Positions 31,492 to 52,576 of a stretch of DNA of 64,000 nt are shown one piece after another. This DNA comes from Pseudomonas frederiksbergensis (GTDB taxonomy: Bacteria; Pseudomonadota; Gammaproteobacteria; Pseudomonadales; Pseudomonadaceae). The notes beneath the pieces are model-generated. The model was given only the letters and a program-made list of their open reading frames with translations, did not search any database and was not told where the DNA came from. A program made the translations under genes and the position numbers. The stretch is taken from NCBI RefSeq assembly GCF_035751725.1, contig NZ_CP142104.1, positions 2,728,001-2,792,000 on the forward strand, read 5' to 3'. Numbering within the stretch: the stretch's first letter is position 1; each line of letters opens with the position of its first letter.

Positions 31492-31530
31492 TCCCATGGA
31501 AGCGTCCACCCGCTACCCAAGTAGCATTCG
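31492..31530 (+). promoter_or_regulatory. Two-part ped/exa motif upstream of the FIST gene
   Basis: Box 1 TCCCATGGAA at 31492 and box 2 GTAGCATTCG with GCAT at 31524, 32 nt apart; 64 nt to the start codon. Box 2 is extended leftwards by CTACCCAA, which forms CTAC-CCAA-GTAG. Confidence 0.5.
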
Positions 31531-31587
31531 TGGGCCCGACGCGGATTCGTACACTCAAGCCTCTATCACGCACCGTCGGAGGCGCAG

Positions 31588-32751
31588 ATGCAGCAGGCCC
31601 AGAGCGAGGGTGTGGTCAGCGCCATGTCCCAGGCAACAGATGTCGAGCAAGTGGCCCAGGAACTGGCGCGACAGTTGTTGCACCCGTACCTGGGGTTCGT
31701 GCTGTTTTTCTGCTCCGCCGAATACGATTTGCCTGGCCTGGCCAAGGCGCTGTCCCAGAGCTTCGGCGGGATTCGCCTGGTGGGCTGCACCAGCGCCGGG
31801 GAAATCACCCCGCAAGGCTATGGCCGCAATTGCGTGACAGCGGTGGGGTTCGATCACCGGCATTTTTCCATCGCTGCCGAGCTGATCGGCGAGATGGAGC
31901 ACTTCTGCTTGATCGATGCCCAGCAGATGGTCGAGCGCCTGGCGAGCGGCTGTCGCAGCAACGCCTTGGCGCCGATCAAGGGCCACAGTTTTGCCTTGAC
32001 CCTGCTCGATGGCTTGTCCAGCCGCGAGGAGATGGTGCTGGCGGCGTTGAGCGCGGCACTGGGCGACATCCCGCATTTCGGCGGCTCGGCCGGAGATGAC
32101 AACTACCTGACCCATACCCACGTCTACTTCGAAGGCCAGTTCCACAGCGGCGCTGCCGTGGTGGTGCTGATCAACACCTGGTTGGAATTCGAGGTGTTCA
32201 CCACCCATCACATCTTGCCCCGGCAAGAAAAACTGGTGGTCACCGGCGCCGACAGCGCCTCGCGGCGGGTCTACGAGCTCAACGCCGAGCCTGCCGCCGA
32301 GGAATACGCGCGACACATCGGCGTGCCGGTGAGCGCGCTGGATTACCGGGTCTTCGCCGCCCATCCACTGGCGGTGCGGATCAACGACCAGTACTACGTG
32401 CGCGCCATTCAGCAGGTCCACTCGGACCTGAGCCTGAGTTTCTATTGCGCGGTCGAGAACGGCATCGTCCTCACCGCCATGAGCCCGGGGCCGTTGCTGC
32501 ACAACCTGCAAGACCTGTTCGACGGGTTGCAGGCCCGCCTCGGGGATTTGCTGCTGACCCTCGGCTGCGACTGTTTCCTGCGGCGCCTGGAGCTGGAGGA
32601 TCGCGATGGCCTGGAACAGATTGGCCAGTTCCTGCGGGAGCATCGGGTGATGGGGTTCAACACCTATGGAGAACAGTTCAATGGCATGCACATCAACCAG
32701 ACGTTCACCGGAGTTGCCATTGCCCGCCATCGCGTCCCCGGCCATCGCTGA
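31588..32751 (+). CDS. FIST-domain signal-transduction protein
   Basis: 387 residues with GGAGG before the ATG. FIST N-terminal part (about 35-225; GCTSAGEITPQGYG, LTLLDGLSSREE, GGSAGDDNYL) and C-terminal part (about 235-375; REHRVMGFNTYGEQ) are both complete. FIST domains are thought to sense small ligands, possibly amino acids, upstream of kinases. The gene overlaps the start of the hybrid kinase that follows, matching the P. aeruginosa arrangement before ErcS'. Cytoplasmic; ligand unknown. Confidence 0.9.
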   Translation: MQQAQSEGVVSAMSQATDVEQVAQELARQLLHPYLGFVLFFCSAEYDLPGLAKALSQSFGGIRLVGCTSAGEITPQGYGRNCVTAVGFDHRHFSIAAELIGEMEHFCLIDAQQMVERLASGCRSNALAPIKGHSFALTLLDGLSSREEMVLAALSAALGDIPHFGGSAGDDNYLTHTHVYFEGQFHSGAAVVVLINTWLEFEVFTTHHILPRQEKLVVTGADSASRRVYELNAEPAAEEYARHIGVPVSALDYRVFAAHPLAVRINDQYYVRAIQQVHSDLSLSFYCAVENGIVLTAMSPGPLLHNLQDLFDGLQARLGDLLLTLGCDCFLRRLELEDRDGLEQIGQFLREHRVMGFNTYGEQFNGMHINQTFTGVAIARHRVPGHR

Positions 32752-35323
32752 GCTGCAGGCGCAGCTCGCCGCCTTGCAACACGAAAACCACAAGCTGCGG
32801 CGCATCAACGACGCGCTGATCGAGCGGGTGGAATCCGGCGTGACTCGTGGCAACGACCCGTACGCAGCCTTCCAGCATTCGGTGGTGCTGGCCGAGCAGG
32901 TGCGTGAGCGTACCGATGCGTTGAACCAGGCCATGGCCGAACTCAAGGCCGGCAACCATTTGCTGGGGGAAGCGCGGCTGCGGGCGGAGACGGCCCATCG
33001 GCACTTGATCGATGCGATCGAGAGCATTTCCGATGCATTCGTGCTGTTTGACGAACAACAACGGATCGTCTTGTTCAACAGCCGTTTCAAGGCGTTCTGG
33101 GCCCACAGTCGGGTGCGGATCATCGCGGGGATGCGTCTTGCCGAGGTCAAGCGCCTGATGACCGCCAACGGTTTGTTCAGCGAAGAAACCCGCGGCCAGC
33201 CTGACGAGCCGGTGCTGTATCGCTTGCAGAACGGGCGTTGGCTGCAGGTCAGCGAGCGGCCGACCCAGGAAGGCGGGCGGGTGATCCTGTTCACCGACAT
33301 CACCGACGTCAAACTCAGTGAAACCGTGCGCCGCGAGCAAGCTGTCGCGCAGAAATCCCATCTGTTGCAGCGCGCCGTGGACAACCTGTCCCAGGGCGTG
33401 GCGATGGTCAACGCCCAGGGTGTGCTCGAGCTGTGGAACCGGCGCTTCCTGGAACTCAGCGGACTGGCGCCGGTGGCGGCCCATCGGCCGTTCAACGAGG
33501 TGATCGCCGACAGCGAGTTGCAACTGCTGACGCCGGCCAGTCGCGATGGCAATGGCCGGCTGATCCAGGAATGCGAGCAGCGCCTCAGCGATGGCCGGGT
33601 CCTGGAGATCCGCACCCATCCGCTGCCTACCGGCGGCTACGTCAACACTTTCACGGACATCACCGAGCGCTACCAGCATGCCGAGGCGTTGAGCGAGAGC
33701 GAGCGCTGGATTCGGCTGATCACCGACCATGTGCCGGCGCTGATCGCCTACCTCAATGCCGATCTGGTCTACGAGTTCACCAACAAGGTCTACGAGCAGT
33801 GGTATTGCTGGCCACGCGGCGTGATGCTCGGCCAGAGCCTGCGCGAAGCCCACAGCGAACAGCATTATCAGCGCCTGGAAGCGTACGTGGCACGGGCGTT
33901 GGCGGGCGAGAGCGTGACGTTCGAGTTCGCCGAGACCAACATCAACAACCAGGAGCGCTACATGTTGCGCTCCTATGTGCCGAACCGCTTGGCCAACGGC
34001 GAAGTGGTGGGGATCTTCGTGCTTATCCGCGACATCACCGAACGCCGTCGCACCGCCGAGGCGCTCCACCAGGCCTATCAGAACCTGGAACATCGGGTGC
34101 AGGAGCGCACCGCCGAACTGACCACCCTCAACGATCAGTTGCTGCGTGAGATCGACGAGCGCAGCCGGGTGGAGTTGCGCTTGCGCGAAGCCAAGCGCGA
34201 GGCCGAACGCGCTAACCTGTCGAAAACCAAATTTCTCGCGGCGGTCAGCCATGACCTGCTGCAACCGTTGAACGCGGCGCGGCTGTTCACCAGTGCCTTG
34301 CTCGAACGCCGCGAGCCGGTGGCGAACGCGCAACTGGTGCGCAACGTAAGCAACTCGCTGCAGGACGTGGAAAATCTGTTAGGCACGTTGGTGGACATTT
34401 CCAAGCTCGATGCCGGCGTGATCAAGGCCGATGTCGCGCCGTTCGCCTTGAGTGAGCTGCTCGATAACCTGGCGGCCGAATATTGCCAAGTGGCGCGCAG
34501 CGAAGGCCTCGAGTTGCGATTTGTGCCTTGCTCGGTGCTGGTGCGCAGCGATATCCAATTGTTGGCGCGGATCCTGCGCAACTTGCTGAGCAACGCGATC
34601 CGCTATACGCCGAAGGGCCGGGTGGTGTTGGGATGCCGTCGCCGCGGCAGTCGTGTGTCGATTGAAGTCTGGGATTCCGGCATCGGCATCGCCCAGGATC
34701 GCCTGGAAGAGATTTTCCAGGAGTTCAAGCGCGGTGACGTGCAACGCCCGGATCAGGACCGTGGCCTGGGCCTGGGTTTGGCGATTGTCGAGAAAATCGC
34801 CGGGATCCTTGGGCACCGGATCCAGGTTCGTTCATGGCCGGGCAGGGGCTCGGTGTTCGCCGTCGAAGTCCCTCTCAGCGCCACCGCGCCCAAGCCATTG
34901 CCTTGCCTGGAGATGAGCGAGCCGATGCTCGAACGCCTGCGCGGGGCAAGGGTCTGGGTGTTGGATAACGACGCGGCGATCTGCGCCGGCATGCGCACTT
35001 TGCTGGAAGGTTGGGGCTGCCGGGTCGTGACGGCGCTGTCGGAGCAGGACCTGGCGCGGCAGGTGGACGGCTACCGCGCCGACGCCGATCTGCTGATCGC
35101 CGATTATCATCTGGATCACGACCAGAACGGTGTGGATGCCGTGGCGCGGATCAACGCCTGCCGCCCTTCACCGATCCCGGCCCTGATGATCACCGCCAAC
35201 TACAGCAACGAGCTCAAGCAGCAGATCCGCGAACGTGGGCATACGCTGATGCACAAGCCGGTGCGGCCGATGAAGCTCAAGATTGCGATGAGTCATCTGT
35301 TGGGCCAAGCAACCAGCGGTTGA
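32720..35323 (+). CDS. pedS1: PAS-containing hybrid sensor histidine kinase (PedS1/ErcS'-like)
   Basis: 867 residues from TTG 32720, chosen because GGAG lies at 32710-32713; an ATG at 32666 or 32681 would lengthen the overlap with the FIST gene. No membrane segment, so cytoplasmic. Coiled coil about 13-75, three PAS units (about 90-195, 205-315, 335-455), a second coiled coil, HisKA with His511 in AAVSHDLLQPLNAARL, HATPase with NLLSNAIRYTP, and a C-terminal receiver with Asp795 (LLIADYHL). It should act with the LuxR-type regulator at 35403. Sensing probably depends on the FIST partner and PAS ligand. Confidence 0.9.
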   Translation: MPAIASPAIAELQAQLAALQHENHKLRRINDALIERVESGVTRGNDPYAAFQHSVVLAEQVRERTDALNQAMAELKAGNHLLGEARLRAETAHRHLIDAIESISDAFVLFDEQQRIVLFNSRFKAFWAHSRVRIIAGMRLAEVKRLMTANGLFSEETRGQPDEPVLYRLQNGRWLQVSERPTQEGGRVILFTDITDVKLSETVRREQAVAQKSHLLQRAVDNLSQGVAMVNAQGVLELWNRRFLELSGLAPVAAHRPFNEVIADSELQLLTPASRDGNGRLIQECEQRLSDGRVLEIRTHPLPTGGYVNTFTDITERYQHAEALSESERWIRLITDHVPALIAYLNADLVYEFTNKVYEQWYCWPRGVMLGQSLREAHSEQHYQRLEAYVARALAGESVTFEFAETNINNQERYMLRSYVPNRLANGEVVGIFVLIRDITERRRTAEALHQAYQNLEHRVQERTAELTTLNDQLLREIDERSRVELRLREAKREAERANLSKTKFLAAVSHDLLQPLNAARLFTSALLERREPVANAQLVRNVSNSLQDVENLLGTLVDISKLDAGVIKADVAPFALSELLDNLAAEYCQVARSEGLELRFVPCSVLVRSDIQLLARILRNLLSNAIRYTPKGRVVLGCRRRGSRVSIEVWDSGIGIAQDRLEEIFQEFKRGDVQRPDQDRGLGLGLAIVEKIAGILGHRIQVRSWPGRGSVFAVEVPLSATAPKPLPCLEMSEPMLERLRGARVWVLDNDAAICAGMRTLLEGWGCRVVTALSEQDLARQVDGYRADADLLIADYHLDHDQNGVDAVARINACRPSPIPALMITANYSNELKQQIRERGHTLMHKPVRPMKLKIAMSHLLGQATSG

Positions 35324-35338
35324 ATCGAGCCGCTTTTC

Positions 35339-35366
35339 GTGGCGAGGGAGCAAGCTTCCTCGCCAC
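35339..35366. repeat. REP-type hairpin between convergent pedS1 and agmR
   Basis: GTGGCGAGGGAGC and GCTTCCTCGCCAC with one mismatch. Probably ends both convergent transcripts. Confidence 0.8.
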
Positions 35367-35402
35367 AGGGGTGTTCACCCTGTCCCCGTAGCGTCCAGCC
35401 GT

Positions 35403-36068
35403 TCAACGCCGCAAGTACGCCCCGAAATCGATATCTCCGGCACTGAGAATCGCCTGCACCCGGTTGTGCACGTTGAGTTTGCGCAGGATTGCCGAGACGT
35501 GGGCCTTGACCGTGGTTTCGGCGATGTCCAGCGTGTAGGCGATCTGCTTGTTCGATTCGCCCTTGGTCATGCGTTCGAGCACCAGCAGTTGCTTGCGGGT
35601 CAGGGCCTGGAGCAGTTCGGGCGGGAACGCCGGGGTTTCGTTCAGGCGCCGGCCCGTGGGGCTTTTCTGGGTGCGGATGATGTCCGGCGGCAGGTACACG
35701 TTGCCATTGAGGATCTGCTCGATGGCGTCGGTCATTTGTGAGCGCGGCGACGACTTGGTGATGAAGCCCACCGCGCCATAGGTGATGGCCTGCAGGACGA
35801 TTTGCTTGTCCTGTTCGGCGGAAACGATCACCACCGGGATGGTCGGCGCTTCGTTGCGCAGGTTGATCAAGCCATTGAGGCCGTGCATGCCGGGCATGTT
35901 CAGGTCCAGCAAGATCAGGTCCAGGTCGTCGTGTTCGCGGGTCAGTGCGAGGGCACTGTCCAGGTCGGCGGTCTCCATCACTTCGCTACCGGCGAAACCG
36001 TCGCTGATGACGTTGTGGATGGCTTCGCGAAACAGTGGGTGATCGTCGGCTATCAGGATTTTATACAT
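35403..36068 (-). CDS. agmR: LuxR/NarL-family response regulator AgmR (ErbR/PedR1)
   Basis: 221 residues from the ATG at 36068, which has a GAGGTGA site at proper distance; an ATG two codons upstream is too close to it. Receiver with acidic pair (IADDH, Asp8-9), phospho-acceptor Asp55 ([10 protein letters not shown]) and Lys in ITKSS. C-terminal LuxR HTH ([43 protein letters not shown]). It is the master activator of PQQ alcohol oxidation in P. aeruginosa and P. putida. It lies 53 bp after the CxxxCW gene on the same strand and may be cotranscribed. Confidence 0.92.
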
Positions 36069-36121
36069 GGCCATTCACCTCGTTATTGTCGTATTGGGGC
36101 AGTTGCACGCAAGTCGCTGCA

Positions 36122-36655
36122 TCAGGGAAAAGGTTCGGGGCGGGCGGCTTGCAGGGGCAGGTTGGCCGCCTCCCAGGCGTCGAGGCCGTCGCGGTACCAA
36201 TACACCTCTTTATAGCCCATGGACGCGGCGCGTTTTACCGCGTTCCAGCTCAACCAGCAATCGGAGCGGCAGTAAAAGACCAATGGTTGATCCAGGCGTC
36301 CGGCGGTGGCTTTGCGCAGGTGAAAGGTGAAGTAATCCTGCCAGCTCGGTTCGAGCTCGCCATCGCCCGTATTGGCCAGCCACAGGCTGCCGGGAAGGTT
36401 GGCGTGGGGCTCGGTGTCGATGAAACGTCCCTGGACCCAGGGGCGCCGGTAGACGTCGATCAACACCGGGGCGGGTTTCTGCCCGAGCAAGCGCTGCAGG
36501 GCTTCAGTGTCGAGGGTTTGCGCGCCTTCGGCGCAGGCGGGTGTCGGGCTGCGGTATTGGGTAATGCGATAGCCCTGCGCAGAAAACAGCGTAGTGTCGG
36601 CCTGCGCGACATTCAGCGACAGGCCCAGCATGACGATCGCCAGCAATCGGGGCAT
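36122..36655 (-). CDS. Periplasmic rhodanese-like PQQ-associated CXXCW-motif protein
   Basis: 177 residues from the ATG at 36655; the frame is open upstream but only through the control region. Signal peptide about 1-19. The rhodanese fold carries FYCRSDCWLSWNA, the Cys-x3-Cys-Trp motif that defines a family found only with PQQ alcohol oxidation clusters. A role in redox maturation or thiol chemistry of quinoprotein dehydrogenases is suspected but unproven. It probably leads a transcript that includes agmR, and has a ped/exa motif 59 nt upstream. Confidence 0.88.
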   Translation of the reverse strand: MPRLLAIVMLGLSLNVAQADTTLFSAQGYRITQYRSPTPACAEGAQTLDTEALQRLLGQKPAPVLIDVYRRPWVQGRFIDTEPHANLPGSLWLANTGDGELEPSWQDYFTFHLRKATAGRLDQPLVFYCRSDCWLSWNAVKRAASMGYKEVYWYRDGLDAWEAANLPLQAARPEPFP

Positions 36656-36708
36656 GGGATTTATCCTTTTTGTTATGCGCCCATTACATGCCAGGGTGGA
36701 AGTCTTGT

Positions 36709-36745
36709 GAATGCGACCATAGACAGGAAAACCGGTACTAAAGTA
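36709..36745 (-). promoter_or_regulatory. Two-part ped/exa motif upstream of the CXXCW gene
   Basis: Minus strand: box 1 TACTTTAGTA beginning at 36745, box 2 TCGCATTC with GCAT at 36714, 31 nt apart; 59 nt to the start codon. Box 1 is palindromic (TACT-TT-AGTA). Confidence 0.5.
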
Positions 36746-36800
36746 GTAATTTGCGTCAGCGATCACACCGATCCCCTGTGGGACCGTGTGTGTGGGCTGC

Positions 36801-39306: not shown

Positions 39307-39332
39307 GGCGTTTTCCTTATTGTTGTTATCGA

Positions 39333-40499: not shown

Positions 40500-40554
40500 G
40501 ACGTCCTCCATTGCAGGTAGCGCCAGCATAGGAAGGCCACGGCCCTGGGGAAAT

Positions 40555-40588
40555 ATGCAGAAAGTACCGCCGGGGCAGTACCAAGGTA
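40555..40588 (-). promoter_or_regulatory. Two-part ped/exa motif upstream of pedC
   Basis: Minus strand: box 1 TACCTTGGTA (perfect TACC-TT-GGTA palindrome) beginning at 40588, box 2 CTGCATAT with GCAT at 40558, 30 nt apart; 59 nt to the start codon. Confidence 0.5.
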
Positions 40589-40656
40589 GTAGCTCGGTCC
40601 GGGCGCCGGGGTTTTAGGATGCTTCCAATCGTCATTGATCAGGGAGCGAACAGGTC

Positions 40657-40860
40657 ATGCGGGTTTTCAAGACGCTGCTGTTGCCGTTATTGCTGATCCT
40701 GAGCTTGATTGGAGTGGATCGACCCAAAGTGTCCCCTGTGGGGACGCGCCTGCTCGCGAAAGCAGTGGTTCAGCCGGCCTTGATGTTGGACGTGCCGCCG
40801 TTTTCGCGAGCAGGCGCGCTCCCACAGGGGGCCGGCGTGATTCGCAGGTTGGAGCACTGA
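40657..40860 (+). CDS. Small predicted secreted protein, coding region interrupted by a REPIN
   Basis: 67 codons beginning with a plausible signal peptide (MRVFKTLLLPLLLILSLIGVD) and a GGGAG site upstream, ending 2 bp before the pedS2 ATG. From codon 26 on, the frame runs through two inverted REP arms (40733-40831), so the middle is repeat-derived and only about 10 C-terminal codons could be original. It may be a once-shorter leader peptide gene altered by REPIN insertion, or chance. Confidence 0.35.
   Translation: MRVFKTLLLPLLLILSLIGVDRPKVSPVGTRLLAKAVVQPALMLDVPPFSRAGALPQGAGVIRRLEH
40733..40831. repeat. REPIN (inverted pair of REP sequences)
   Basis: CCCCTGTGGGGACGCGCCTG followed by CTCGCGAAA (40733-40761) is mirrored by TTTTCGCGAGCAGGCGCGCT with CCCACAGGGGG (40801-40831). 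Together they form a long cruciform upstream of pedS2. Confidence 0.85.
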
Positions 40861-40862
40861 CC

Positions 40863-42119
40863 ATGTCAGCCCTCTGGCGAATCAACCTCTGGGTCTCAGC
40901 GTTCTTTGCCTTGGTCACCCTGGCCTGTGCAACGCTGCTGCTGCACCAGGCCACGGCCGATGTGACACGCGAACTGCAATCGGCCGAGTCGGTGGTGCAT
41001 TACCTGCGCGAGACCGCCCAGCGCGATCCGGCCAGCCTTCAATCGCGGCTCACCGGCAGCCTGCGTCACGTGCGGGTGCGTTGGTTGGCCGCCGCAGAGC
41101 ATTCGCCGGCCCAGGAGCCCGGCTTGAACGCCTGGCTGGGGCGTCGACTCTTGCACGACGGTCCTGTCGCCCAGGTCGTTGAATTGCAGGACGGTCGTCG
41201 AGCCTGGATCGCCGTTGACCCCGGGGATGAAGTGGATGAAATCCTCGATTCCCTGGTGCAACTGCTCGGTGTTTGCGCGATGGCCTGGCTGCTCAGCCTG
41301 CTGGCAATCCGTTGGGCGGTGCGCCGGGGCATGCGCTTGCTGGACGATTTGCTGCGGGCGCTGCACCAGGTGTCCGCGGGCGACCTGCACGTGAACCTGC
41401 GGACCGAAGGCCTTTCGGAAGCCCAGCAACTGGCGGAGCATTTCAATCGGATGACTGCCGCCCTGGCCCAGACCCGGGCGGACAATGCCCGGCTGACCCA
41501 GGCGTTGCTGGCGGTACAAGAGCAGGAACGCAGATCCCTTGCGCAAACCTTGCACGACGATCTGGGCCAATATGTGGCGGGCATTCGAGCGCGGGCCTGT
41601 CTGCTGCGGCTGGTAATCCATCAGCCGCCGGCGCTGGAGCAGACCGCCAGCGAGTTGGAAGAACACTGTGACCATTTGCAGCAAGGCTTTCGCGCCTTGG
41701 TCAACGACTTGTACCCCGTCGTGCTCCAGCATTTGCCGTTGGGCGAAGCCATCGAGTTGTTGGCCCGGCAATGGCAGGACAGCCACGGCATCGCCTGCCA
41801 GTTGCGGGTCGATGGCGCGATACCGCCATTGGCCGGGTCGGACAAAGCCCACCTGTACCGCCTGTTGCAGGAAGCGCTGACCAACATCGCCCGGCATGCC
41901 GACGCCAGCCAGGTGCGGATCCGCATGCAGCATCGCGCCGGTCGCCTGCGGCTATGGGTGCGCGATAACGGACGCGGTGCCAAGCAGCCCGCCCGGGCCG
42001 GGGTGGGCTTGCATTCGATGGCCGAACGGGCCCGCAGCCTCGGCGGTGAGCTGCGGGTCATGAGCCGGCCCGGCGCGGGTTGGGCGCTGGACTTGAACAT
42101 TCCCCTGGAGGCGTCATGA
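40863..42119 (+). CDS. pedS2: Membrane sensor histidine kinase PedS2-like
   Basis: 418 residues. Two membrane helices (about 7-27 and 133-155) bound a periplasmic sensor loop of about 105 residues; a HAMP linker follows, then HisKA_3 with the phospho-His in LAQTLHDDLGQYV (about residue 230) and HATPase (LLQEALTNIARHADASQ, GVGLHSMAERA). In P. putida this kinase responds to lanthanides and switches between PedE and PedH. The stop overlaps pedR2 (ATGA). Sensor specificity is taken from synteny, not from residues I can identify. Confidence 0.9.
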   Translation: MSALWRINLWVSAFFALVTLACATLLLHQATADVTRELQSAESVVHYLRETAQRDPASLQSRLTGSLRHVRVRWLAAAEHSPAQEPGLNAWLGRRLLHDGPVAQVVELQDGRRAWIAVDPGDEVDEILDSLVQLLGVCAMAWLLSLLAIRWAVRRGMRLLDDLLRALHQVSAGDLHVNLRTEGLSEAQQLAEHFNRMTAALAQTRADNARLTQALLAVQEQERRSLAQTLHDDLGQYVAGIRARACLLRLVIHQPPALEQTASELEEHCDHLQQGFRALVNDLYPVVLQHLPLGEAIELLARQWQDSHGIACQLRVDGAIPPLAGSDKAHLYRLLQEALTNIARHADASQVRIRMQHRAGRLRLWVRDNGRGAKQPARAGVGLHSMAERARSLGGELRVMSRPGAGWALDLNIPLEAS

Positions 42120-42754
42120 ACATTTTGTTGGTGGATGACCACGCCGTGGTCCGGCAAGGCTACGCCAGCCTGTTGCGGGCACTGATGCCGGAGCTGCAGG
42201 TTCGCGAAGCCGCTTCGGGCGAAGAGGCATTGAGCCAGGTGCAGGAGCAAGTGCCAAACCTGGTGATCATGGACTTCGGCCTGCCGGGCATCAGCGGGCT
42301 GGAAACCACCCGGCGCCTGCGCCAACGCTTGCCGCAACTGCGGGTGCTGTTCTTCAGCATGCACGACGAATTGCCGTTGGTGCGCCAGGCGCTGGAGGCG
42401 GGCGCGGCGGGCTATCTGACCAAGAACTCGGCACCGCAGGTATTGGTGGAGGCGGTGCGGCGGGTGCTGGCCGGCCACGCCTACATCGAGCAGGCTCTGG
42501 CCACTCAGTTGGCCTGCGCAACCAACCGCCACGACAGCGATCCGCGCCTGCAATCAATGACCCAGCGGGAGTTGGAAATCTTCGTCATGCTCGCCAAGGG
42601 CACCCCCGCGCGGACCATTGCCGAACAGCTGTGCATCAGCGCCAAGACCGTGTCCAACCACCTGACGTTGCTCAAGAGCAAATTGCAGGTCAGTTCCCAC
42701 GCCGAGTTGGTGCATTTGGGAATTGATATGGGGGTGGTGCGGGTGGCGGGGTGA
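42116..42754 (+). CDS. pedR2: LuxR-family response regulator PedR2-like
   Basis: 212 residues from the ATG at 42116; the longer frame lies in the kinase gene. Receiver with VDDH, Asp53 (VIMDFGLPG) and Lys in YLTKNSA, then LuxR HTH (MTQRELEIFVMLAKGTPARTIAEQLCISAKTVSNHLTLLKSKL). It pairs with PedS2 and should control the calcium and lanthanide dehydrogenase genes. Followed by a REP hairpin that separates it from the convergent pentapeptide gene. Confidence 0.92.
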   Translation: MNILLVDDHAVVRQGYASLLRALMPELQVREAASGEEALSQVQEQVPNLVIMDFGLPGISGLETTRRLRQRLPQLRVLFFSMHDELPLVRQALEAGAAGYLTKNSAPQVLVEAVRRVLAGHAYIEQALATQLACATNRHDSDPRLQSMTQRELEIFVMLAKGTPARTIAEQLCISAKTVSNHLTLLKSKLQVSSHAELVHLGIDMGVVRVAG

Positions 42755-42778
42755 AACCAGGCGATGAAGATAAATTAT

Positions 42779-42803: not shown

Positions 42804-42816
42804 ACGGGTAATGTGT

Positions 42817-43461: not shown

Positions 43462-43480
43462 GGCATGAACTCAGGCAAGT

Positions 43481-43582
43481 GTTGGAGCGGGCTTGCTCCG
43501 GGCGGCGATCCGACGAAGACGTCGGCACAGTCAGAATCCCTATCAACTGAACCACCGCTTTCACGAGCAAGCCCGCTCCAAC
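43481..43582. repeat. REPIN
   Basis: GTTGGAGCGGGCTTGCTC at 43481 and GAGCAAGCCCGCTCCAAC ending at 43582 are inverted, 60 bp apart, between the pentapeptide start and the pedE stop. Confidence 0.85.
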
Positions 43583-43606
43583 TGGGGATGGGGTACAAGT
43601 CAGGGG

Positions 43607-45463
43607 TTATTTCTGCGCCGTCGCCTTATCCCAACTCGGGATCTTGAACACCCAGAACGACCCGCCCTGGGCCACCGGCTTGGTCAGTTCGGCCATGTCG
43701 CCGCCCCACAACGGCACGGCGCCGCCATAGCCGACGGTCACGCCGATGTACTGCTCGCCGTCCTGCTCCCACGTAACCGGCGGGGAGACGATGCCGCTGC
43801 CGGTCTGGAACTTCCACAGCTCCTTGCCGGTTTTCGCATCGAAGGCCTTGAAGAAGCCGTCACCGGTGCCGGTGAACACCAGGTTGCCCTTGGTTGCCAG
43901 CACGCCGGCCCACAATGGCAGTGGTTCCTTGTGCTCCCACACCACTTTGCCGGTGGTGGGGTTCATCGCCCGCAAACTGCCGACGTGATCGTCATACATA
44001 CGCTTGATGCGGAAGCCCATGCCCAGGTAGGCCGAGCCTTTCTTGTAACTGACTTCCTCGGTCCAGTATTCCTCTTTCCACTGGTTGCCCGGTACGTAGA
44101 AAAGCCCGGTGTCCTGGCTGTAGGCCATGGGGTTCCAGTTCTTGCCACCGAGGAACGGCGGCGAGACTTCCACCGGTTTGCCCTTGGTTTCACCGGGCAG
44201 AGGCTTGGCCGGACGCTGGCCCGGGTTTTCCACCGGGCGGCCGGTCTTCAAGTCGATGTGGCTGGCCCAGGTGATGTTATCGACGAAGGGAAAGGCGTTC
44301 TGCAGCTTGCCGTTGTTGCGGTCCACCACGTAGAAGAAGCCGTTGCGGTCGGCGTGGGCGGTAGCCTTGACGACTTTGCCGTCCTTGTCCTTGTAGTCGA
44401 ACAGCACCAGTTCGTTGTTGCCGGAGAAGTCCCAGGCATCGTTGGGCGTGTGCTGGTAGAACCATTTCACTTCACCCGTGCTTGGATCGACGCCCACCTG
44501 GCCCGAGGTATAGAGGCTGTCGTAGTCATGGGGATTGCCGTCCTTGGCCGTGCGCGCCCAGGTGTTCCAGGGGCCTGGGTTACCCGCGCCGACGATGATG
44601 GTGTTGGTCTCCGGGTCGAAGCTGGCGCTCTGCCAAGGCGCGCCGCCGCCGTGGCTCCAGGCCTCGACCTTGCCGGTCTCGGTGGTCTTGTCGTCAGGCC
44701 ATGAGGGCGCCTTGACGTCGCCGGTCGGCGTGCTGTCCTTGCCATTTAGACGGCCCATGTGGCCTTCGACGAACGGGCGCATCCAGACTTCCTCGCCGGT
44801 GTCCGGGTCACGGGCGAACAACTGCCCGACGACACCGAACTCGTCGCCGGAACTGCCGTGGATCAGCAGGACTTTGCCGCTGGTCTTGTCCTTGATCAGC
44901 ACCGGGGCCCCGGTCATGGTGTAGCCGCCGGCGTGGTCACCGAACTTCTTGTTCCACACCACTTTGCCGGTGTTCTTGTCCAGGGCGACAACCCGGGCGT
45001 CGAGCGTGCCGAAATAGATCTTGTCGCCGTAGATGGCCGCGCCGCGATTGACCACGTCGCAGCACGGGCGAATGTTGTCCGGCAGCCGGTGGTTGTAGGT
45101 CCACAAGCGCTTGCCGGTCTTGGCGTCGAGGGCGAATACCCGCGAATACGAGCCGGTGACGTAGACCACGCCGTCGCTGACGATGGCCTGGGACTCCTGG
45201 CCGCGCTGTTTTTCGTCGCCGAATGAATAGGACCAGGCCGGGGTCAGCTTGAACACGTTTTTGTCGTTGACCTGGGCCAGCGGGCTCCAGCGCTGGGCGT
45301 TCGTGCCCATGCCGTATTGCAGCACGTCCTTGGTGGTCAGGTGGTCGTTGGCAATGTCTTCCCAGCTAACGGCAGCGTTGGCCTGCGGGCCCAGGGACAG
45401 GCTGCCGGCCAGCAGCAAGGCAACGGTCAGGGAGGAGAGGGCAGGGAGCGTTTTTATTGTCAT
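43607..45463 (-). CDS. pedE: PQQ-dependent, calcium-type alcohol dehydrogenase PedE/ExaA
   Basis: 618 residues from the ATG at 45463; the frame is open further upstream without support. Signal peptide about 1-34. Eight-bladed propeller with W-motifs, adjacent Cys pair DNIRPCCDVVNRG (redox disulfide near PQQ), and the catalytic Asp at about 345 in AWDFSGNNE. The residue two after it is Ser, not Asp, so the enzyme should use Ca2+. It oxidises ethanol and other alcohols in the periplasm and passes electrons to PedF. Divergent from pedF with 251 bp of shared control region. Confidence 0.95.
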   Translation of the reverse strand: MTIKTLPALSSLTVALLLAGSLSLGPQANAAVSWEDIANDHLTTKDVLQYGMGTNAQRWSPLAQVNDKNVFKLTPAWSYSFGDEKQRGQESQAIVSDGVVYVTGSYSRVFALDAKTGKRLWTYNHRLPDNIRPCCDVVNRGAAIYGDKIYFGTLDARVVALDKNTGKVVWNKKFGDHAGGYTMTGAPVLIKDKTSGKVLLIHGSSGDEFGVVGQLFARDPDTGEEVWMRPFVEGHMGRLNGKDSTPTGDVKAPSWPDDKTTETGKVEAWSHGGGAPWQSASFDPETNTIIVGAGNPGPWNTWARTAKDGNPHDYDSLYTSGQVGVDPSTGEVKWFYQHTPNDAWDFSGNNELVLFDYKDKDGKVVKATAHADRNGFFYVVDRNNGKLQNAFPFVDNITWASHIDLKTGRPVENPGQRPAKPLPGETKGKPVEVSPPFLGGKNWNPMAYSQDTGLFYVPGNQWKEEYWTEEVSYKKGSAYLGMGFRIKRMYDDHVGSLRAMNPTTGKVVWEHKEPLPLWAGVLATKGNLVFTGTGDGFFKAFDAKTGKELWKFQTGSGIVSPPVTWEQDGEQYIGVTVGYGGAVPLWGGDMAELTKPVAQGGSFWVFKIPSWDKATAQK

Positions 45464-45598
45464 GGTGGGATTTCCCAGTGAGGTTTTGGCCTGACTAGGG
45501 TCGGTCTCATCACCCACGACCGATACGGAAAAAGTCCCGCCCTTGCCGGGAAGACTTCCCAAACCGCCTGTCTTTGCGACTTGCGTCGGATGGCCTGC

Positions 45599-45637
45599 TA
45601 CCAAGGAACTAGACCCCGGCCACCAAAGCAGCATTCG
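45599..45637 (+). promoter_or_regulatory. Two-part ped/exa motif between pedE and pedF
   Basis: Box 1 TACCAAGGAA at 45599, continuing CTAG, and box 2 AAAGCAGCATTCG with GCAT at 45631, 32 nt apart; 84 nt to the pedF start. Its position 136 bp from pedE could also serve the divergent gene. Confidence 0.55.
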
Positions 45638-45714
45638 GCTGGTGGCAAGCGGTTCCTAAGATGACGGCACGGCCTCTGCGAAGAGGTCTTGCGTGCAATT
45701 TCGAGGGCATAACA

Positions 45715-46176
45715 ATGACAACAAAACGCAACGCCATCATCGCTACCGCATTGCTGATGGGGCTGACCGGCGCAGGCTCCGCGTGGGCCCATGGCAACGT
45801 GGTGCCCCAGGCAGTGGAAACCAAGGGACTGACCCCGATCAAGGACACCAACCTGCCATTGGATGCCGATGGCTGGGCCGCACAGAACCCCTATCGCAAT
45901 TCTCCTGAGCGGGACAAAGCCGTGGAAATCGGCGCCTCGGCCTATAACCAGAACTGCGCGGCCTGCCATGGCCTGGAAGCCAAGTCCGGCGGGATCGCCC
46001 CGGACCTGCGCATGCTCGACGCCGCCGAAGCCGGTGACGAATGGTTCGTTGAACGCGTGCGCCACGGCGCGGTGCGCGACGGCCGCGTGTATATGCCGAA
46101 AATGGCCGATTACCTGAGCCAGGAAGCGCTTTGGGCGGTGCGGACCTATCTGGACAGCGTACACGTCGAGGAGTGA
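45715..46176 (+). CDS. pedF: Periplasmic cytochrome c550 (PedF/ExaB)
   Basis: 153 residues from the ATG at 45715. Signal peptide about 1-25 (AWA). A single haem site CAACH at about residue 80 in YNQNCAACHGLEAKSGG; the distal Met is probably in VYMPKMADYL. It accepts electrons from the quinoprotein dehydrogenases and feeds the oxidase chain. First gene of a four-gene run to 48777 with gaps of 5, 9 and 16 bp. Confidence 0.92.
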   Translation: MTTKRNAIIATALLMGLTGAGSAWAHGNVVPQAVETKGLTPIKDTNLPLDADGWAAQNPYRNSPERDKAVEIGASAYNQNCAACHGLEAKSGGIAPDLRMLDAAEAGDEWFVERVRHGAVRDGRVYMPKMADYLSQEALWAVRTYLDSVHVEE

Positions 46177-46181
46177 TTGCC

Positions 46182-47057: not shown

Positions 47058-47066
47058 GAGCGCGGG

Positions 47067-47822
47067 ATGAACTGGCGAGCGTTTGGCCTGCTGTTGGGGT
47101 GCCTGCCGTTGATGGCGAGTGCCGTCGAGCCGGGAAAGGACCCGGTGCCGTCGGTAATGTGGGCCTTTTACCACAAACAGTTGCTGGCGGACGCGCCGTT
47201 CGTGTTCGACGAGCGGGTGCGTCTGTTGGCGCCACCCTTCGCCGAAGACGCGCGCCAGGTGCCGCTGGAAATCGATGCCCGGGCGTTCGCCGGCGATGTC
47301 GTGCGGATACTGGCCTGGGCCGAACTCAACCCGCTGCCCAGGATTGTCGATTTCCAGCCTTCGGAGCGGGTGCTGCCGTGGTTGTCGATCCGTATTCGTA
47401 TCGAACAGGCCACGCCGTTGCGCGCCGCCGTGCAGACTCGCGACGGCCTGTGGCACGTTGGCTCGACCGTGATCGACGCGGCAGGTGGCGGTTGCACCGC
47501 GCCCAGCGTGGTGCGTACCCAAGCGGGTTGGGAGGAGCACCTGGGCGAGGTGTTGGGCGGGCGTTACCCGCGTGGGGATTCGAATCGCCTGCGCTTGCAG
47601 ATCGCCCATCCCATGGACAACGGCCTGGTGAGCGGCATCCCTGAATTCTTCATCAACCAGGCGCAACTGTTCGACGCCGACGGCAAGCTGCTGGCGCGCC
47701 TGGAGCTATTTCCGGCGGTGAGCGAAAACCCCAACCTGGGCTTCGACATCCGAGGCTCGGGCCAGACCCGCCTGGTGCTGCGTGACAACAGCGGCAACCA
47801 GTTCGACGCGGCCATACCCTGA
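47067..47822 (+). CDS. Quinoprotein dehydrogenase-associated SoxYZ-like carrier protein
   Basis: 251 residues. Signal peptide about 1-20. The N-terminal SoxY-like half ends in AAGGGCTAPS (about residues 139-148), matching the SoxY swinging-arm Cys (GGCGG). The C-terminal half is SoxZ-like (IAHPMDNGL, FFINQAQLFDADGKLLARLELFPAVSENPNLGFDI). No sox sulfur genes are nearby, so a carrier arm seems borrowed for alcohol oxidation. It would carry a bound intermediate on Cys; the cargo is unknown. Confidence 0.88.
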   Translation: MNWRAFGLLLGCLPLMASAVEPGKDPVPSVMWAFYHKQLLADAPFVFDERVRLLAPPFAEDARQVPLEIDARAFAGDVVRILAWAELNPLPRIVDFQPSERVLPWLSIRIRIEQATPLRAAVQTRDGLWHVGSTVIDAAGGGCTAPSVVRTQAGWEEHLGEVLGGRYPRGDSNRLRLQIAHPMDNGLVSGIPEFFINQAQLFDADGKLLARLELFPAVSENPNLGFDIRGSGQTRLVLRDNSGNQFDAAIP

Positions 47823-47838
47823 CCACAAGGAGCGCGCC

Positions 47839-48777
47839 ATGCGCTGGTTGCTGCTGATCTGTCTTGGGCTGTGCCTGCCGGCGTGGTCCGCCACCGATTA
47901 CTCCCTCAAGCCGCGGCAGATCGCCGAGGGCACCTGGTTGCTGGAAGGCAGCACGGAAAATTTCGCCAAGGCCAACGGTGGCAATATCGTCAACACGGCG
48001 TTCATCGTTACCGACGCCGGTGTGGTAGTCATCGACACCGGGCCGTCGAAGCGTTATGGCGAAGCGCTGCGCCAGGCCATCGCGGCGACCACCGACAAAC
48101 CGGTGATCCAGGTGCTGCTGACCCATCATCATCCCGATCACGTATTGGGCAACCAGGCCTTCAGCGACGTGCCCATTGGGGCGTTGCCCGGCACCGTCGA
48201 CCTGCTGCGACAGCAGGGCGATGCGCTGGCGGAAAACATGTACCGGTTGGTAGGCGATTGGATGCGCGGCACCGAGGTGGTGCTGCCGACCCAGGCGCTG
48301 AACCCCGGGACGCTGAAGGTGGGCGACCATTCGATGCGCCTGCTGGCGTTGGCCGGCCATACCGGGGCGGACCTGGCGATCCTGGACGAAACCACCGGCG
48401 TGCTGTTTGCCGGCGACCTGGTATTTTATGAGCGCGCCCTGACGACCCCGAACAGCCCCGGCCTTGAGGTCTGGCTCAAGGACTTGGACACCCTCCAGGC
48501 GCTGCCCTGGAAGCAAATCGTCCCCGGCCACGGCCCGGTGGCGACCGACGCCCGGCCGTTTTCGCAAATGCACGACTACCTTGGCTGGCTCGACCAACTG
48601 ATGCGCGACGGCGCCGCCCGCGGCGACGACATGGCCGAGATGATCCGCAGCCCCATCCCCGAGCGCTTCGCCGGGATCAGCTTGAGCCGGTATGAGTTGA
48701 TTCGCAGTGTCAGTCATCTCTATCCGCGTTATGAGCGGGCGGGGATGAAGCGGGTGGACACCCACGATCCTGACTGA
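47839..48777 (+). CDS. Quinoprotein relay zinc metallohydrolase (MBL fold)
   Basis: 312 residues from the ATG at 47839. Signal peptide about 1-18. Metallo-beta-lactamase motifs THHHPDH (about residues 94-100), AGHTGAD, FAGDLVF and VPGHGPV complete the two-metal site. SoxH-related; it pairs genetically with the SoxYZ-like carrier and may hydrolyse whatever is loaded on its Cys. Substrate unknown. End of the pedF operon. Confidence 0.88.
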
Positions 48778-48820
48778 ACACATCTGCCTCGCCACGGGGG
48801 GATTCGCTTACTTCCACATG

Positions 48821-48858
48821 TACCAAGGAACTAGAAAACTCAACACAGCGGGCAATTG
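48821..48858 (+). promoter_or_regulatory. Two-part ped/exa motif upstream of pedH (box 2 weak)
   Basis: Box 1 TACCAAGGAACTAGA at 48821 is identical over 15 bases to the pedE/pedF copy. Box 2 is poor (GCAATTG at 48852, 31 nt on); 89 nt from there to the start codon. Confidence 0.45.
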
Positions 48859-48940
48859 TTGGCGGCGGCCCCTGGCCCAAGAATCTGTGGCAGACCGGGA
48901 AAATTTCCCGGGTATAACAATAACCGCAGAGGTAGCCGCC

Positions 48941-50716
48941 ATGATTCATCCCGCACGTCGCCAGCCCTTCGCCGTGAACCTGCTGCTCAGTGCCATGCTG
49001 CTGTCCGGTTCGGCCTTGGCCGCCGTGACCGATCAGGAAATTCTCCAGGACCCGAAGAACCCGCAACAGATCGTCACCAACGGCTTGGGTGTCCAGGGCC
49101 AGCGCTACAGCCCGCTCGATGCCCTCAATGTCGATAACGTCAAGGACCTGCGACCGGTCTGGGCGTTTTCCTTCGGCGGTGAGAAGCAGCGCGGCCAGCA
49201 GGCCCAGCCGATGATCAAGGACGGGGTGATGTACCTCACAGGTTCCTATTCGCGAGTGTTCGCGGTGGACGCACGCACCGGCAAGAAACTCTGGCAGTAC
49301 GATGCACGACTACCCGATGACATCCGTCCTTGCTGCGACGTGATCAACCGGGGCGTGGCCTTGTATGGCGACCTGGTGTTCTTCGGCACCCTCGACGCCA
49401 AGCTGGTGGCGTTGAACAAGGACACCGGCAAAGTGGTGTGGAGCAAGAAAGTCGCCGACCACAAGGAAGGCTACTCCATCAGTGCCGCGCCCATGGTCGT
49501 GAATGGCAAGCTCATTACCGGGGTGGCCGGGGGGGAGTTCGGCGTGGTCGGCCAGATCAGCGCGTTCGATCCAAAAAATGGCGCGTTGCTGTGGACCCGG
49601 CCGACCGTGGAAGGCCACATGGGCTACGTCTACAAGGACGGCAAGGCGGTGGAGAACGGCATTTCCGGCGGCGAAGCCGGCAAGACCTGGCCGGGTGACC
49701 TCTGGAAAACCGGCGGCGCGGCGCCTTGGCTGGGCGGCTACTACGACCCGGAAACCAACCTGCTGCTGTTCGGCACCGGCAACCCGGCCCCGTGGAACTC
49801 CCACCTGCGTCCTGGCGACAACCTCTATTCGTCCTCGCGCCTGGCCCTGAACCCGGACGACGGCACGATCAAGTGGCACTTCCAGAGCACACCCCACGAC
49901 GGCTGGGACTATGACGGTGTCAACGAGCTGATCTCGTTCAACTACAAGGAAGGCGGCAAGGACATCAAGGCCGCAGCGACCGCCGACCGTAACGGCTTCT
50001 TCTACGTGCTCGACCGTACCAACGGCAAGTTCATCCGCGGCTTCCCATTCGTCGACAAGATCACTTGGGCCAGCGGCCTGGACAAGGACGGGCGGCCAAT
50101 CTACGTCGACTCCAGCCGTCCGGGTGCGCCGGGCAGCGAAGCCAAGGGCAGCTCGGTATTCGTCGCCCCGGCATTCCTCGGTGCGAAAAACTGGATGCCG
50201 ATGGCCTACAACCAGGACACCGGCCTGTTCTACGTGCCGTCCAACGAATGGGGCATGGACATCTGGAACGAAGGCATCGCCTACAAGAAGGGCGCGGCAT
50301 TCCTCGGGGCCGGGTTCACCATCAAGCCGCTGAACGAGGACTACATCGGCGTGCTGCGGGCCATCGACCCCAAGACCGGCAAGGAGGTCTGGCGCCACAA
50401 GAACTTCGCGCCGCTGTGGGGCGGGGTCCTGACCACCAAGGGCAACCTGGTATTCACCGGTACACCTGAAGGGTTCCTGCAGGCATTCAACGCCAAGACC
50501 GGGGAAAAGGTCTGGGAATTCCAGACAGGCTCCGGCGTGCTCGGCTCGCCGATCACCTGGGAAATGGACGGCGAGCAGTACGTCTCGGTGGTTTCCGGCT
50601 GGGGCGGCGCGGTGCCGCTGTGGGGCGGCGAGGTGGCCAAGCGCGTGAAGGACTTCAACCAGGGCGGCATGCTGTGGACCTTCAAGTTGCCGAAAGAGCT
50701 GGTGGCCAAGCGCTAA
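48941..50716 (+). CDS. pedH: PQQ-dependent, lanthanide-type alcohol dehydrogenase PedH
   Basis: 591 residues from the ATG at 48941. Signal peptide about 1-28. Same propeller architecture as PedE, with [23 protein letters not shown] and the Trp-docking repeats. At the catalytic Asp the sequence is GWDYDGVNE: the second Asp, two residues on, is the extra ligand of lanthanide-dependent (XoxF-like) enzymes. Periplasmic alcohol and aldehyde oxidation when rare earths are present; electrons probably pass to PedF. Preceded by a motif shared with the pedE/pedF promoter and followed by a REPIN. Confidence 0.95.
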
Positions 50717-50731
50717 AAGCTTGTCGAAAAC

Positions 50732-50825
50732 CGTGGCGAGGGAGCTTGCTCCCGCTCGGCTGCGAAGCAGTCGCCAAAAGCGGGGAGTGCTGCGCACTCC
50801 AGCGGGAGCAAGCTCCCTCGCCACA
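50732..50825. repeat. REPIN
   Basis: CGTGGCGAGGGAGCTTGCTC... at 50732-50756 is inverted at 50801-50825, with an inner hairpin GGAGTGC-TGC-GCACTCC. It separates pedH from pedI. Confidence 0.85.
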
Positions 50826-50871
50826 AGGGCCTGCGCTGGCCTTGAACTTGCTCCTGTCGCTTGAAATCTAC

Positions 50872-50910
50872 GACCAAATAACGAGAGAGCCCCTGCCAAT
50901 GACGCATTCG
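50872..50910 (+). promoter_or_regulatory. Two-part ped/exa motif upstream of pedI
   Basis: Box 1 GACCAAATAA at 50872 and box 2 TGACGCATTCG with GCAT at 50904, 32 nt apart; 81 nt to the start codon. Confidence 0.45.
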
Positions 50911-50984
50911 TCCACCGCACGGGGCTCTCTACCATCGGCCTATCGCCTGTCCCGCGACAGGCATCGACCAGGCAGAGGCCCATC

Positions 50985-52505
50985 ATGATCTACGCACAAC
51001 CCGGAACCCCAGGCGCCGTCGTTTCCTTTAAACCGCGCTATGGCAATTTCATTGGCGGCGAGTTCGTCGCGCCGGTCAACGGCGAGTACTTCACCAACAC
51101 GTCGCCGGTCAATGGCGAAGTCATCGGCGAATTCCCGCGCTCCAGCGCCGCCGACATCGACAAGGCCCTGGACGCGGCCCATGCCGCCGCCGATGCGTGG
51201 GGCAAGACTTCGGTGCAGGACCGTTCCCTGGTGTTGCTGAAAATCGCCGACCGCATCGAGCAGAACCTGGAAATCCTCGCGGTCAGCGAGACCTGGGACA
51301 ACGGCAAGGCCGTGCGTGAAACCCTGAACGCCGACGTACCGCTGTCAGCCGACCATTTCCGTTACTTTGCCGGCTGCATTCGCGCGCAAGAGGGCGGGGC
51401 TGCCGAGATCAACGAGTTGACAACGGCCTATCATTTCCATGAGCCGCTGGGCGTGGTCGGGCAGATCATCCCCTGGAACTTCCCGCTGCTGATGGCCGCC
51501 TGGAAACTCGCCCCGGCCCTGGCCGCCGGCAACTGCATCGTGCTCAAGCCGGCGGAACAGACGCCGCTGTCGATCACGGTATTCATCGAGCTGATCGCCG
51601 ACCTGCTGCCAGCCGGCGTGTTGAACATCGTCCACGGCTTTGGCCGCGAGGCCGGTGAAGCGCTGGCCACCAGCAAGCGCATCGCCAAGATCGCCTTCAC
51701 CGGCTCGACCCCGGTGGGCTCGCACATCATGAAATGCGCCGCCGAGAACATCATCCCGTCCACCGTGGAACTGGGCGGCAAGTCGCCGAACATCTTCTTC
51801 GAAGACATCATGCAGGCCGAGCCGGCATTCATCGAGAAGGCCGCCGAGGGCCTGGTGCTCGCGTTTTTCAACCAGGGCGAAGTCTGCACCTGCCCATCCC
51901 GTGCCCTGGTCCAGGAATCGATCTACGCGCCGTTCATGGCCGAAGTCATGAAGAAGATCGCCAAGATCAAGCGCGGCAACCCACTGGACACCGAGACCAT
52001 GGTTGGCGCCCAGGCGTCCCAGCAGCAGTACGACAAGATTCTTTCGTACCTGGACATCGCCCGGGAAGAGGGCGCCGAGTTGCTCACCGGTGGCGCGGCG
52101 GAGCGCCTTGAAGGGGATCTGTCGAGCGGCTATTACATCCAGCCAACCCTGCTCAAGGGCCACAACAAGATGCGCGTGTTCCAGGAAGAAATCTTTGGCC
52201 CGGTGGTGGGCGTGACCACCTTCAAGGACGAAGCCGAAGCCCTGGCGATCGCCAACGACACCGAGTTCGGCCTCGGTGCCGGCCTCTGGACCCGGGACAT
52301 CAACCGCGCCTACCGCATGGGCCGGGCGATCAAGGCCGGTCGCGTGTGGACCAACTGCTACCACCTGTACCCGGCCCACGCTGCGTTCGGTGGGTACAAG
52401 AAGTCCGGCGTCGGTCGCGAGACCCACAAGATGATGCTCGACCATTACCAGCAGACCAAGAATTTGCTGGTGAGCTATGACGTGAATCCGTTGGGGTTCT
52501 TCTGA
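50985..52505 (+). CDS. pedI: NAD-dependent aldehyde dehydrogenase PedI/ExaC
   Basis: 506 residues. Catalytic Glu in VELGGKSPN and Cys in [11 protein letters not shown], with the cofactor loop FTGSTPVG; all intact. It oxidises acetaldehyde and other aldehydes, made by PedE/PedH, to acids in the cytoplasm. Its own ped/exa motif and a REPIN upstream indicate a separate promoter. The 268-bp gap before it holds only those elements. Confidence 0.93.
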
Positions 52506-52536
52506 CCCCTGGGCATTCACCGAGTGGCTCCTGTAG

Positions 52537-52576
52537 TACCAACGCACCCTAGCCATCGCTTCGAAAGTAGCATTCG
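52537..52576 (+). promoter_or_regulatory. Two-part ped/exa motif upstream of pqqA
   Basis: Box 1 TACCAACGCA at 52537 and box 2 GAAAGTAGCATTCG with GCAT at 52570, 33 nt apart; 73 nt to the pqqA start. Confidence 0.55.

Follow-up and report, generated by a model that had tools for sequence, protein, structure and literature searches.

A two-part DNA motif upstream of the ped genes of Pseudomonas as the probable operator of the response regulator AgmR

A 64-kb stretch of the 6.00-Mb single-contig genome of Pseudomonas frederiksbergensis (NZ_CP142104.1, positions 2,728,001 to 2,792,000 of the forward strand; hereafter the window, in whose own numbering coordinates are given) contains the ped cluster, and a first-pass annotation made from the letters alone had noticed that seven transcription units in it are preceded by the same two boxes at a nearly fixed spacing. 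This raises the question of whether the resemblance is real and, if so, which protein reads it. The two-part motif is real, i.e., more than chance. Comparison across genomes points to an operator of AgmR (PedR1/ErbR), a NarL/LuxR-type response regulator encoded in the same cluster, and we consider this very probable. AgmR, and not PedR2, is most likely the regulator because the motif goes with AgmR across relatives.

All seven box pairs are present where they had been reported, on the strands reported and oriented with the gene. The GCAT of box 2 (GCAA at pedH) follows the first base of box 1 by 30-33 nt and precedes the start codon by 59-89 nt. Before nosP (FIST), box 1 is an 18-bp dyad at 31488..31505 on the plus strand, followed by box 2, CTACCCAAGTAGCATTCG (31510..31530; centre 22 bp from that of box 1), and a -10 hexamer TACACT at 31550-31555. 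The pair before the CXXCW gene (PP_2666-like) and agmR lies on the minus strand, with the box 1 dyad at 36732..36749, box 2 at 36708..36728 (centre 21 bp from box 1), and a -10 region TGTAAT at 36688-36683, 61 nt from the start of box 1. Also on the minus strand is the pair whose unit had been labelled pedC but is actually headed by pedA1, which encodes a periplasmic binding protein and is the first gene of pedA1A2BC; it consists of the dyad TACTACCTTGGTACTG (40575..40592), a box 2, GGTACTTTCTGCATATTTC (40552..40572), that matches the dyad core weakly, and a -10 TATGCT at 40530-40525. The other four pairs are on the plus strand, namely those of pedF (box 1 dyad, 45595..45612; box 2, CACCAAAGCAGCATTCG, 45617..45637; -10 TAAGAT, 45657-45662), pedH (48817..48834; 48838..48858; -10-like AAGAAT, 48879-48884), pedI (50868..50885; box 2, TGCCAATGACGCATTCG, 50890..50910; -10 TACCAT, 50930-50935), and pqqA (52533..52550; box 2, CTTCGAAAGTAGCATTCG, 52556..52576, centre 23 bp from box 1; -10 ATTAAT, 52596-52601, at 63 nt). 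The box 2 of pedH had rightly been called weak: it reads GCAATTG.

By itself, box 1 forms an 18-bp dyad, CTACTACCnnGGnAGTAG, with the consensus CTACTACC-nn-GGnAGTAG, i.e., a 7-2-7 arrangement around the core CTAC-N4-GTAG. Its column profile agrees with its own reverse complement at r = 0.68, a value reached by 0/5000 column permutations. The centre of box 2 lies 20-23 bp downstream, about two helical turns, so the first-pass proposal of one dimer site spread over three turns does not hold; the 30-33 nt on which it was based are measured to GCAT, close to the right-hand end of box 2.

To follow the motif among orthologues, 42 records from 39 genomes were collected (the window, L005, and L032-L071), covering this genome and same-genus relatives and excluding genes with a match that starts beyond residue 12 as well as upstream regions of less than 250 nt. 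Both boxes with unit-specific spacing were found in 169 of 177 regions, window rows included: pedF 38/38, pedA1 23/23, pedH 27/27, pedI 25/29, nosP 10/10, CXXCW 24/24, and pqqA 22/26. The centre-to-centre distance is characteristic of the unit, being 22 at pedF, 20 at pedA1, 21 at pedH, 22 at pedI (23 in three), 22 at nosP (23 in one), 21 at CXXCW (22 in four), and 23 at pqqA (22 in six). A search with a hand-typed -10 table of E. coli type placed the start of the best -10 at 62 nt from the start of box 1 in 37/38 pedF, 21/23 pedA1, 27/27 pedH, 22/25 pedI, and 9/10 nosP regions, at 61 nt in 17/24 CXXCW regions, and at 63 nt in 15/22 pqqA regions, with the remainder of the latter at 62. Taking the -10 hexamer as -12 to -7 centres box 1 at about -65.5 and box 2 at about -43.5. 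We thus infer from the -10-like hexamers a sigma-70-type -10 with a poor -35, with box 1 near -65.5.

The simplest counts could be read as chance resemblance, or as duplicated promoters carried along with their genes. The loose pattern TACCnnGG (at most one mismatch), 30-33 nt, GCATTC (at most one mismatch) is not enriched: the window has 17 occurrences, 100 first-order Markov resamplings of it give 13.3 +- 4.0, and only three of the seven sites satisfy the pattern. Single-box counts in the window are also near chance, both for AGCATTCG (6 against a mean of 2.6, with 6/100 shuffles reaching 6) and for TACCNNGGNAC (3 against 0.85, with 9/100 shuffles reaching 3), and a whole-genome search for the exact gapped pattern retrieved pedF as its sole match. 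A longer run common to the pedF and pedH boxes would suit duplication. Against chance or duplication, the spacing stays fixed among orthologues while the sequence between the boxes drifts. When the window sites were scored with matrices made from orthologues of the other six units, six of the seven were recovered (pedF 36.2, pedI 28.3, nosP 24.0, pqqA 22.1, CXXCW 17.6, pedA1 16.4) above the 99.99th percentile of 2 x 64 kb (10.4-13.0); the pedH site failed this held-out test with a score of 8.6. The pedF dyad read in reverse scored 15.8-22.0, above pedA1.

Specificity in the whole genome points the same way. A gapped profile, R1, was built from 82 of the 169 sites (alignment A1), and a scan of the 6.0-Mb genome with it returned exactly these seven sites, all of them in the training set, at E <= 1.7e-4; the next match had E = 0.11. 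No cluster-protein homologue lies near the four sub-threshold matches (E = 0.11-9.4; regions L149, L150, L129, and L130). Outside the training set, in 20 loci from ten other genera, 50 of 53 matches (E <= 0.05) face one of the seven genes or agmR from a position at most 300 bp upstream. Of the three exceptions, one lies past pedC near the stretch end, another between pedF and pedA1, and the third at the pedA1 dyad, on its pedS2 side. Counted by gene, 49 of 64 starts in these genera carry a match (pedF 16/20, pedA1 9/9, pedH 10/12, pedI 6/7, nosP 3/4, CXXCW 3/6, pqqA 2/6), and a degenerate box pair is visible by eye at the four pedF starts without one (L106, L108, L109, and L119). Among 80 named pedF loci, some from strains that overlap with the genomes of the upstream-region set, box 1 has at most 4/18 mismatches in 80/80, box 2 has at most 1/15 in 78 and 3-4 in two, and the spacing is 22 in 79 and 21 in one. 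No record titled P. aeruginosa was among the 80 best matches listed in one contig scan. With the spacing, held-out, and genome-wide results in hand, we find an origin by chance or by carried-along duplication hardly credible. The suggestion that the motif is a gene-oriented site for a LuxR/NarL-type response regulator is supported; the motif is conserved upstream of orthologues and has no further significant match in this genome.

Which regulator this might be was approached through co-occurrence. Among 119 same-genus genomes, a pedF match (E <= 1e-50) was obtained in 52; the other 67 have either none (54) or weak ones only (13); AgmR and motif searches were run on 38 of the 52 and on 33 of the 67 (20 of the matchless genomes, as listed, and the 13 weak ones). 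An AgmR orthologue (78-100% identity) is present in 58/58 pedF-bearing genomes from 11 genera, and R1 matches are present in 55 of these. PedR2 orthologues (57% or more) are found in 49/58. In the other nine (G060, G053, G040, G092, G002, G097, G126, G129, and G257), the best match to PedR2 is at 37-38%. Among the 33 pedF-less same-genus genomes, three (G006, G051, and G083) have 2-4 motif matches, and these are exactly the ones with an AgmR orthologue (78-89%); PedR2 was not found in them (best 37-38%). The other 30 have no motif match at E <= 0.01 and no AgmR above 47%. Overall, the motif is present in 41/41 same-genus genomes tested that have AgmR and in 0/30 that do not.

These distributions bear on two other readings. 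The first-pass annotation had left the choice between AgmR/PedR1 and PedR2 open, and only the former half of that proposal stands. PedR2 (ExaE/EraR; pedR2, 42116..42754, plus strand), the lanthanide-switch regulator, is encoded in the cluster, and deletion of pedR2 moderately lowers pedF and pedI, according to the accessible portion of PMC13390443. In contrast, the motif is not lost in any of the nine pedF-bearing genomes without PedR2, each of which keeps 6-7 matches, and it persists in the three genomes with AgmR only; pedE, the classical PedR2 target, has no match in its own orientation in this genome; and, in the same part of PMC13390443, the pedS2R2 promoter requires PedR1 only. PedR2 as the binder was consequently rejected, being in our estimate very improbable. 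We rate similarly low the idea that the shared sequence is a promoter type read by an alternative sigma factor instead of an operator. Box 2 and a -10-like hexamer do sit at promoter positions in all seven units, but the 18-bp dyad at about -65.5 is outside the region that sigma contacts, the -10 is sigma-70-like, and occurrence follows AgmR in the 41/41 and 0/30 genomes just given.

Further afield, 245 genomes of the order were scanned, and 13 outside the family have a match at E <= 0.001, with about 0.25 false matches expected. The AgmR search out of the family covered these motif-bearing genomes only; it found an orthologue (68-82%) in 12 of the 13, G505 having none, and in eight of the 12, PedR2 matches do not exceed 42%. 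Seven of these loci were read, and in six of them the matches precede pedF, pedH, pedI, pedA1, or pqqA; the seventh is that of G505. In one of the 58 pedF-bearing genomes (G213:C1:341369-342036), agmR is split over two frames while seven motif matches are kept, which reflects either a sequencing error or a recent loss.

The three pedF-less genomes have a site before agmR and another before a gene for a 382-residue iron-type alcohol dehydrogenase (L261 5009-5081, L262 5630-5702, and L259 6017-6089); G006 has sites before nosP and pedI as well. The box before the dehydrogenase gene, in genomes that lack both pedF and PedR2, would be a sign of a rewired regulon. In the window, the AgmR box (36675-36751) precedes the CXXCW-agmR pair, and where no CXXCW gene intervenes the box stands directly before agmR, as in L051 and the three pedF-less genomes (loci L051, L259, L260, and L263). 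Because agmR follows the CXXCW gene here and has the box directly before it elsewhere, agmR is probably subject to positive autoregulation.

The properties of AgmR and the available genetics are consistent with this assignment. The protein, encoded at 35403..36074 on the minus strand, has a receiver domain (PF00072) and a LuxR-type helix-turn-helix (HTH) domain (PF00196) and is the putative binder of the boxes. NarL (1a04) is its best solved relative by sequence. AgmR retains the TVK found in the recognition helix of NarL, at a place where PedR2 has TVS. NarL sites are 7-2-7 dyads beginning TAC. In strain KT2440, deletion of pedR1 strongly lowers pedE, pedF, and pedI, and the pedS2R2 promoter relies on PedR1 alone and is active in E. 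coli when pedR1 is supplied (accessible portion of PMC13390443); the motif is present in the window at the promoters found to be PedR1-dependent in that other strain, i.e., pedF, pedI, and the pedS2R2 side of the shared dyad. AgmR activation is likewise reported for the main pqq operon and the ped core genes in the accessible portion of PMC12997753.

Several observations weigh against AgmR as the reader of these sites. AgmR-bearing genomes without a passing R1 match do occur (3/58; G120, G124, and G135), no acceptable site was found in 4/29 pedI and 4/26 pqqA upstream regions, and 15/64 gene starts in the ten other genera have no R1 match. Three of the four site-less pedI regions (L041, L043, and L071) belong to loci without pedH between soxH and pedI. 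In 7/24 CXXCW regions, the best -10 is elsewhere, at 72-73 nt. Deletions of pedR2 and pedS2 in KT2440 also cause moderate falls of pedE, pedF, and pedI, going by the accessible portion of PMC13390443. The main pqqFABCDE operon has no R1 match in this genome, nor was a site seen upstream of pqqA in L134; its dependence on AgmR may be indirect, or its site may be divergent. The pqqA copy of the ped cluster does carry a site. Lastly, because AgmR is inherited along with the ped cluster, co-occurrence is not proof; the informative genomes are the nine without PedR2 and the three without pedF.

With sequence, spacing, conservation, genome specificity, and co-occurrence with AgmR established, we infer binding, activation, a role for box 2, and autoregulation as follows. 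An active AgmR dimer would bind box 1, centred at about -65.5 in a sigma-70-type promoter whose -35 is poor. Box 2, near -43.5, lies about 22 bp away, i.e., two turns on and on the same face; it would most likely take up a second dimer, which from there could make class II contacts with RNA polymerase. As for the strong upstream dimer, its role may be to contact the alpha subunit or to aid binding of the second. Between pedA1 and pedS2, a single strong dyad would serve both promoters.

The divergent pedS2R2 promoter that faces the pedA1 dyad was not among the units listed by the first-pass annotation. When the dyad is read in reverse, a -10-like TA(G/C)(C/G)AT starts 40 nt past the dyad start (TAGGAT in the window, 40615..40620, plus strand), which places the dyad at -43.5 for pedS2R2. 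It lies at -65.5 for pedA1, and one strong dyad therefore fills both box positions. The pedS2-facing -10 is present at 40 nt in 15 of 17 loci with pedS2, in 13 of them as the best place (L050 and L061 score higher elsewhere); the two loci without it, L054 and L055, have the pedS2 start about 1.7 kb distant. In six loci without a full pedS2, this -10 is intact in one (L053), degenerate in one (L068), shifted by 3 nt in one (L066), and absent in three (L064, L069, and L070).

The role of box 2 is less certain than that of box 1. The sequence of box 2, about 22 bp downstream, has the look of a weaker box 1, and its GCATTCG extends into a poor -35. With the register fixed, the two boxes agree at r = 0.44, which 17/5000 permutations reach; when shifts are allowed, 263/5000 do. 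The core CTAC-N4-GTAG fits best 11 nt ahead of GCAT, at 4.86 of 8 positions (all offsets: mean 2.03, standard deviation 0.59; the anchor gives one match), and at nosP it is near perfect (7.8/8, with a perfect core in the window). Alternatively, only box 1 would be an AgmR site, and box 2 would be either an activator-dependent -35 region, in which GCATTCG ends near -32, or a site bound by some other factor. Box 2 does overlap the putative -35 region, and GCATTCG is its best-conserved part; box 2 by itself shows no significant dyad symmetry (r = 0.28, 404/5000 permutations), and the core matches poorly at pedA1 (1.8/8) and pedH (3.1/8). In addition, GCAT shifts its position by up to 3 nt from unit to unit, while the distance from box 1 to the -10 is nearly constant. 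On the other side stand the best fit of the core at 11 nt, the perfect core at nosP, and the strong pedS2R2 dyad, which occupies just the box 2 position. We regard this alternative as possible but rather doubtful, and it would leave the core of the AgmR explanation intact. The first-pass wording of one site plus a promoter element holds in part, because box 2 overlaps the -35 region. That box 2 is a second AgmR site is accordingly less sure than the assignment of box 1.

Taken further, an AgmR operator with two same-face sites 22 bp apart could form one grammar that works in either direction, in which the pedS2-facing -10 decays upon loss of pedS2R2, and AgmR with its autoregulatory site could be an ancestral alcohol-response module, which survives without pedF and PedR2 and now drives the iron-type alcohol dehydrogenase. 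We find the case for and against this broader proposal evenly balanced.

Three known systems come close. The NarL/NarP operators of Escherichia coli likewise have 7-bp inverted half-sites starting TAC, 2 bp apart, and a regulator composed of a receiver and a LuxR-type HTH. The NarL half-site is TACYYMT, whereas the half-site here is TACTACC, a weaker copy follows about 22 bp on, and the genes concerned serve alcohol oxidation. The AgmR/ErbR/PedR1 regulon, as published, includes PedR1-dependent pedF, pedI, and pedS2R2 (PMC13390443) and AgmR-dependent ped core genes and pqq operon (PMC12997753), both papers again being cited from their accessible portions; what is added here to that published account is the DNA site, its positions, the divergent sharing, and the CXXCW-agmR feedback. 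The PedS2/PedR2 (ExaD/ExaE, EraS/EraR) rare-earth switch belongs to the same cluster, uses a LuxR-type response regulator, and acts on pedE and pedH (accessible portion of PMC6115532). It differs in that the AgmR motif persists without PedR2 and in that pedE and pedH are marked by another palindrome, GGGAAN2-4TTCCC. No printed consensus of the present form was found in the open-access literature, to which the search was confined, subscription papers and supplements lying outside it. PMC13390443 (2026) infers direct PedR1 action from genetics, and its accessible portion contains none of the words binding site, motif, palindrome, EMSA (electrophoretic mobility shift assay), or footprint. In the accessible main text of the HT-SELEX (high-throughput systematic evolution of ligands by exponential enrichment) atlas PMC8041468, EraR is mentioned once.

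AgmR has been described as the top activator of Pseudomonas alcohol oxidation, with its direct action so far argued from mutants. A defined operator with fixed positions makes direct action testable and offers a reason for the pedS2R2 promoter needing AgmR alone. It also predicts positive autoregulation of agmR and makes the regulon readable in other genomes, and for the engineering of P. putida it supplies a short promoter design that responds to alcohol.

The ped cluster in the window comprises nosP, pedS1, agmR, the CXXCW/rhodanese gene, pedC, pedB, pedA2, pedA1, pedS2, and pedR2, and further pedD, pedE, pedF, pedG, SoxYZ- and SoxH-like genes, pedH, pedI, pqqA (23 residues), yiaY, and a gene for a hybrid kinase. 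These names follow in part the gene table in the accessible portion of PMC12997753.

The palindrome GGGAAN2-4TTCCC lies in the window upstream of pedE (45440-45600) and in the pedH leader (48895-48925). Upstream of pedE it is present in strict form in 32/50 loci and in loose form in 14 more, with none in four. Between the -10 and the start codon of pedH, the strict form occurs in 26/30 loci with PedR2 and 5/9 without (Fisher p = 0.065). In nine other units checked, it was found only at pedF (17/38), with which pedE shares its intergenic region. Such a pattern suits a putative operator through which PedR2 would activate pedE and block pedH, but this would not account for the persistence of the palindrome in genomes without PedR2.

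Before yiaY (52730-52815), a GGTCTGATTGCATTC-like element, seen in many of 15 regions, has GCATTC and no conserved box 1, and R1 does not match it in this genome. Between the pedS2R2 promoter and pedS2 is a short reading frame (MRVFKTLLLPLLLILSLIGVD..., 40656-40860), with look-alikes by eye in L038, L039, L044, and L046; its product may be a small peptide, either a leader or a membrane peptide. In the intergenic gaps at 40700-40845 and 43480-43590, inverted repeats with GCTCGCGA/GAGCAAGC cores occur in pairs, as seen by eye, and resemble repetitive extragenic palindromic (REP) elements.

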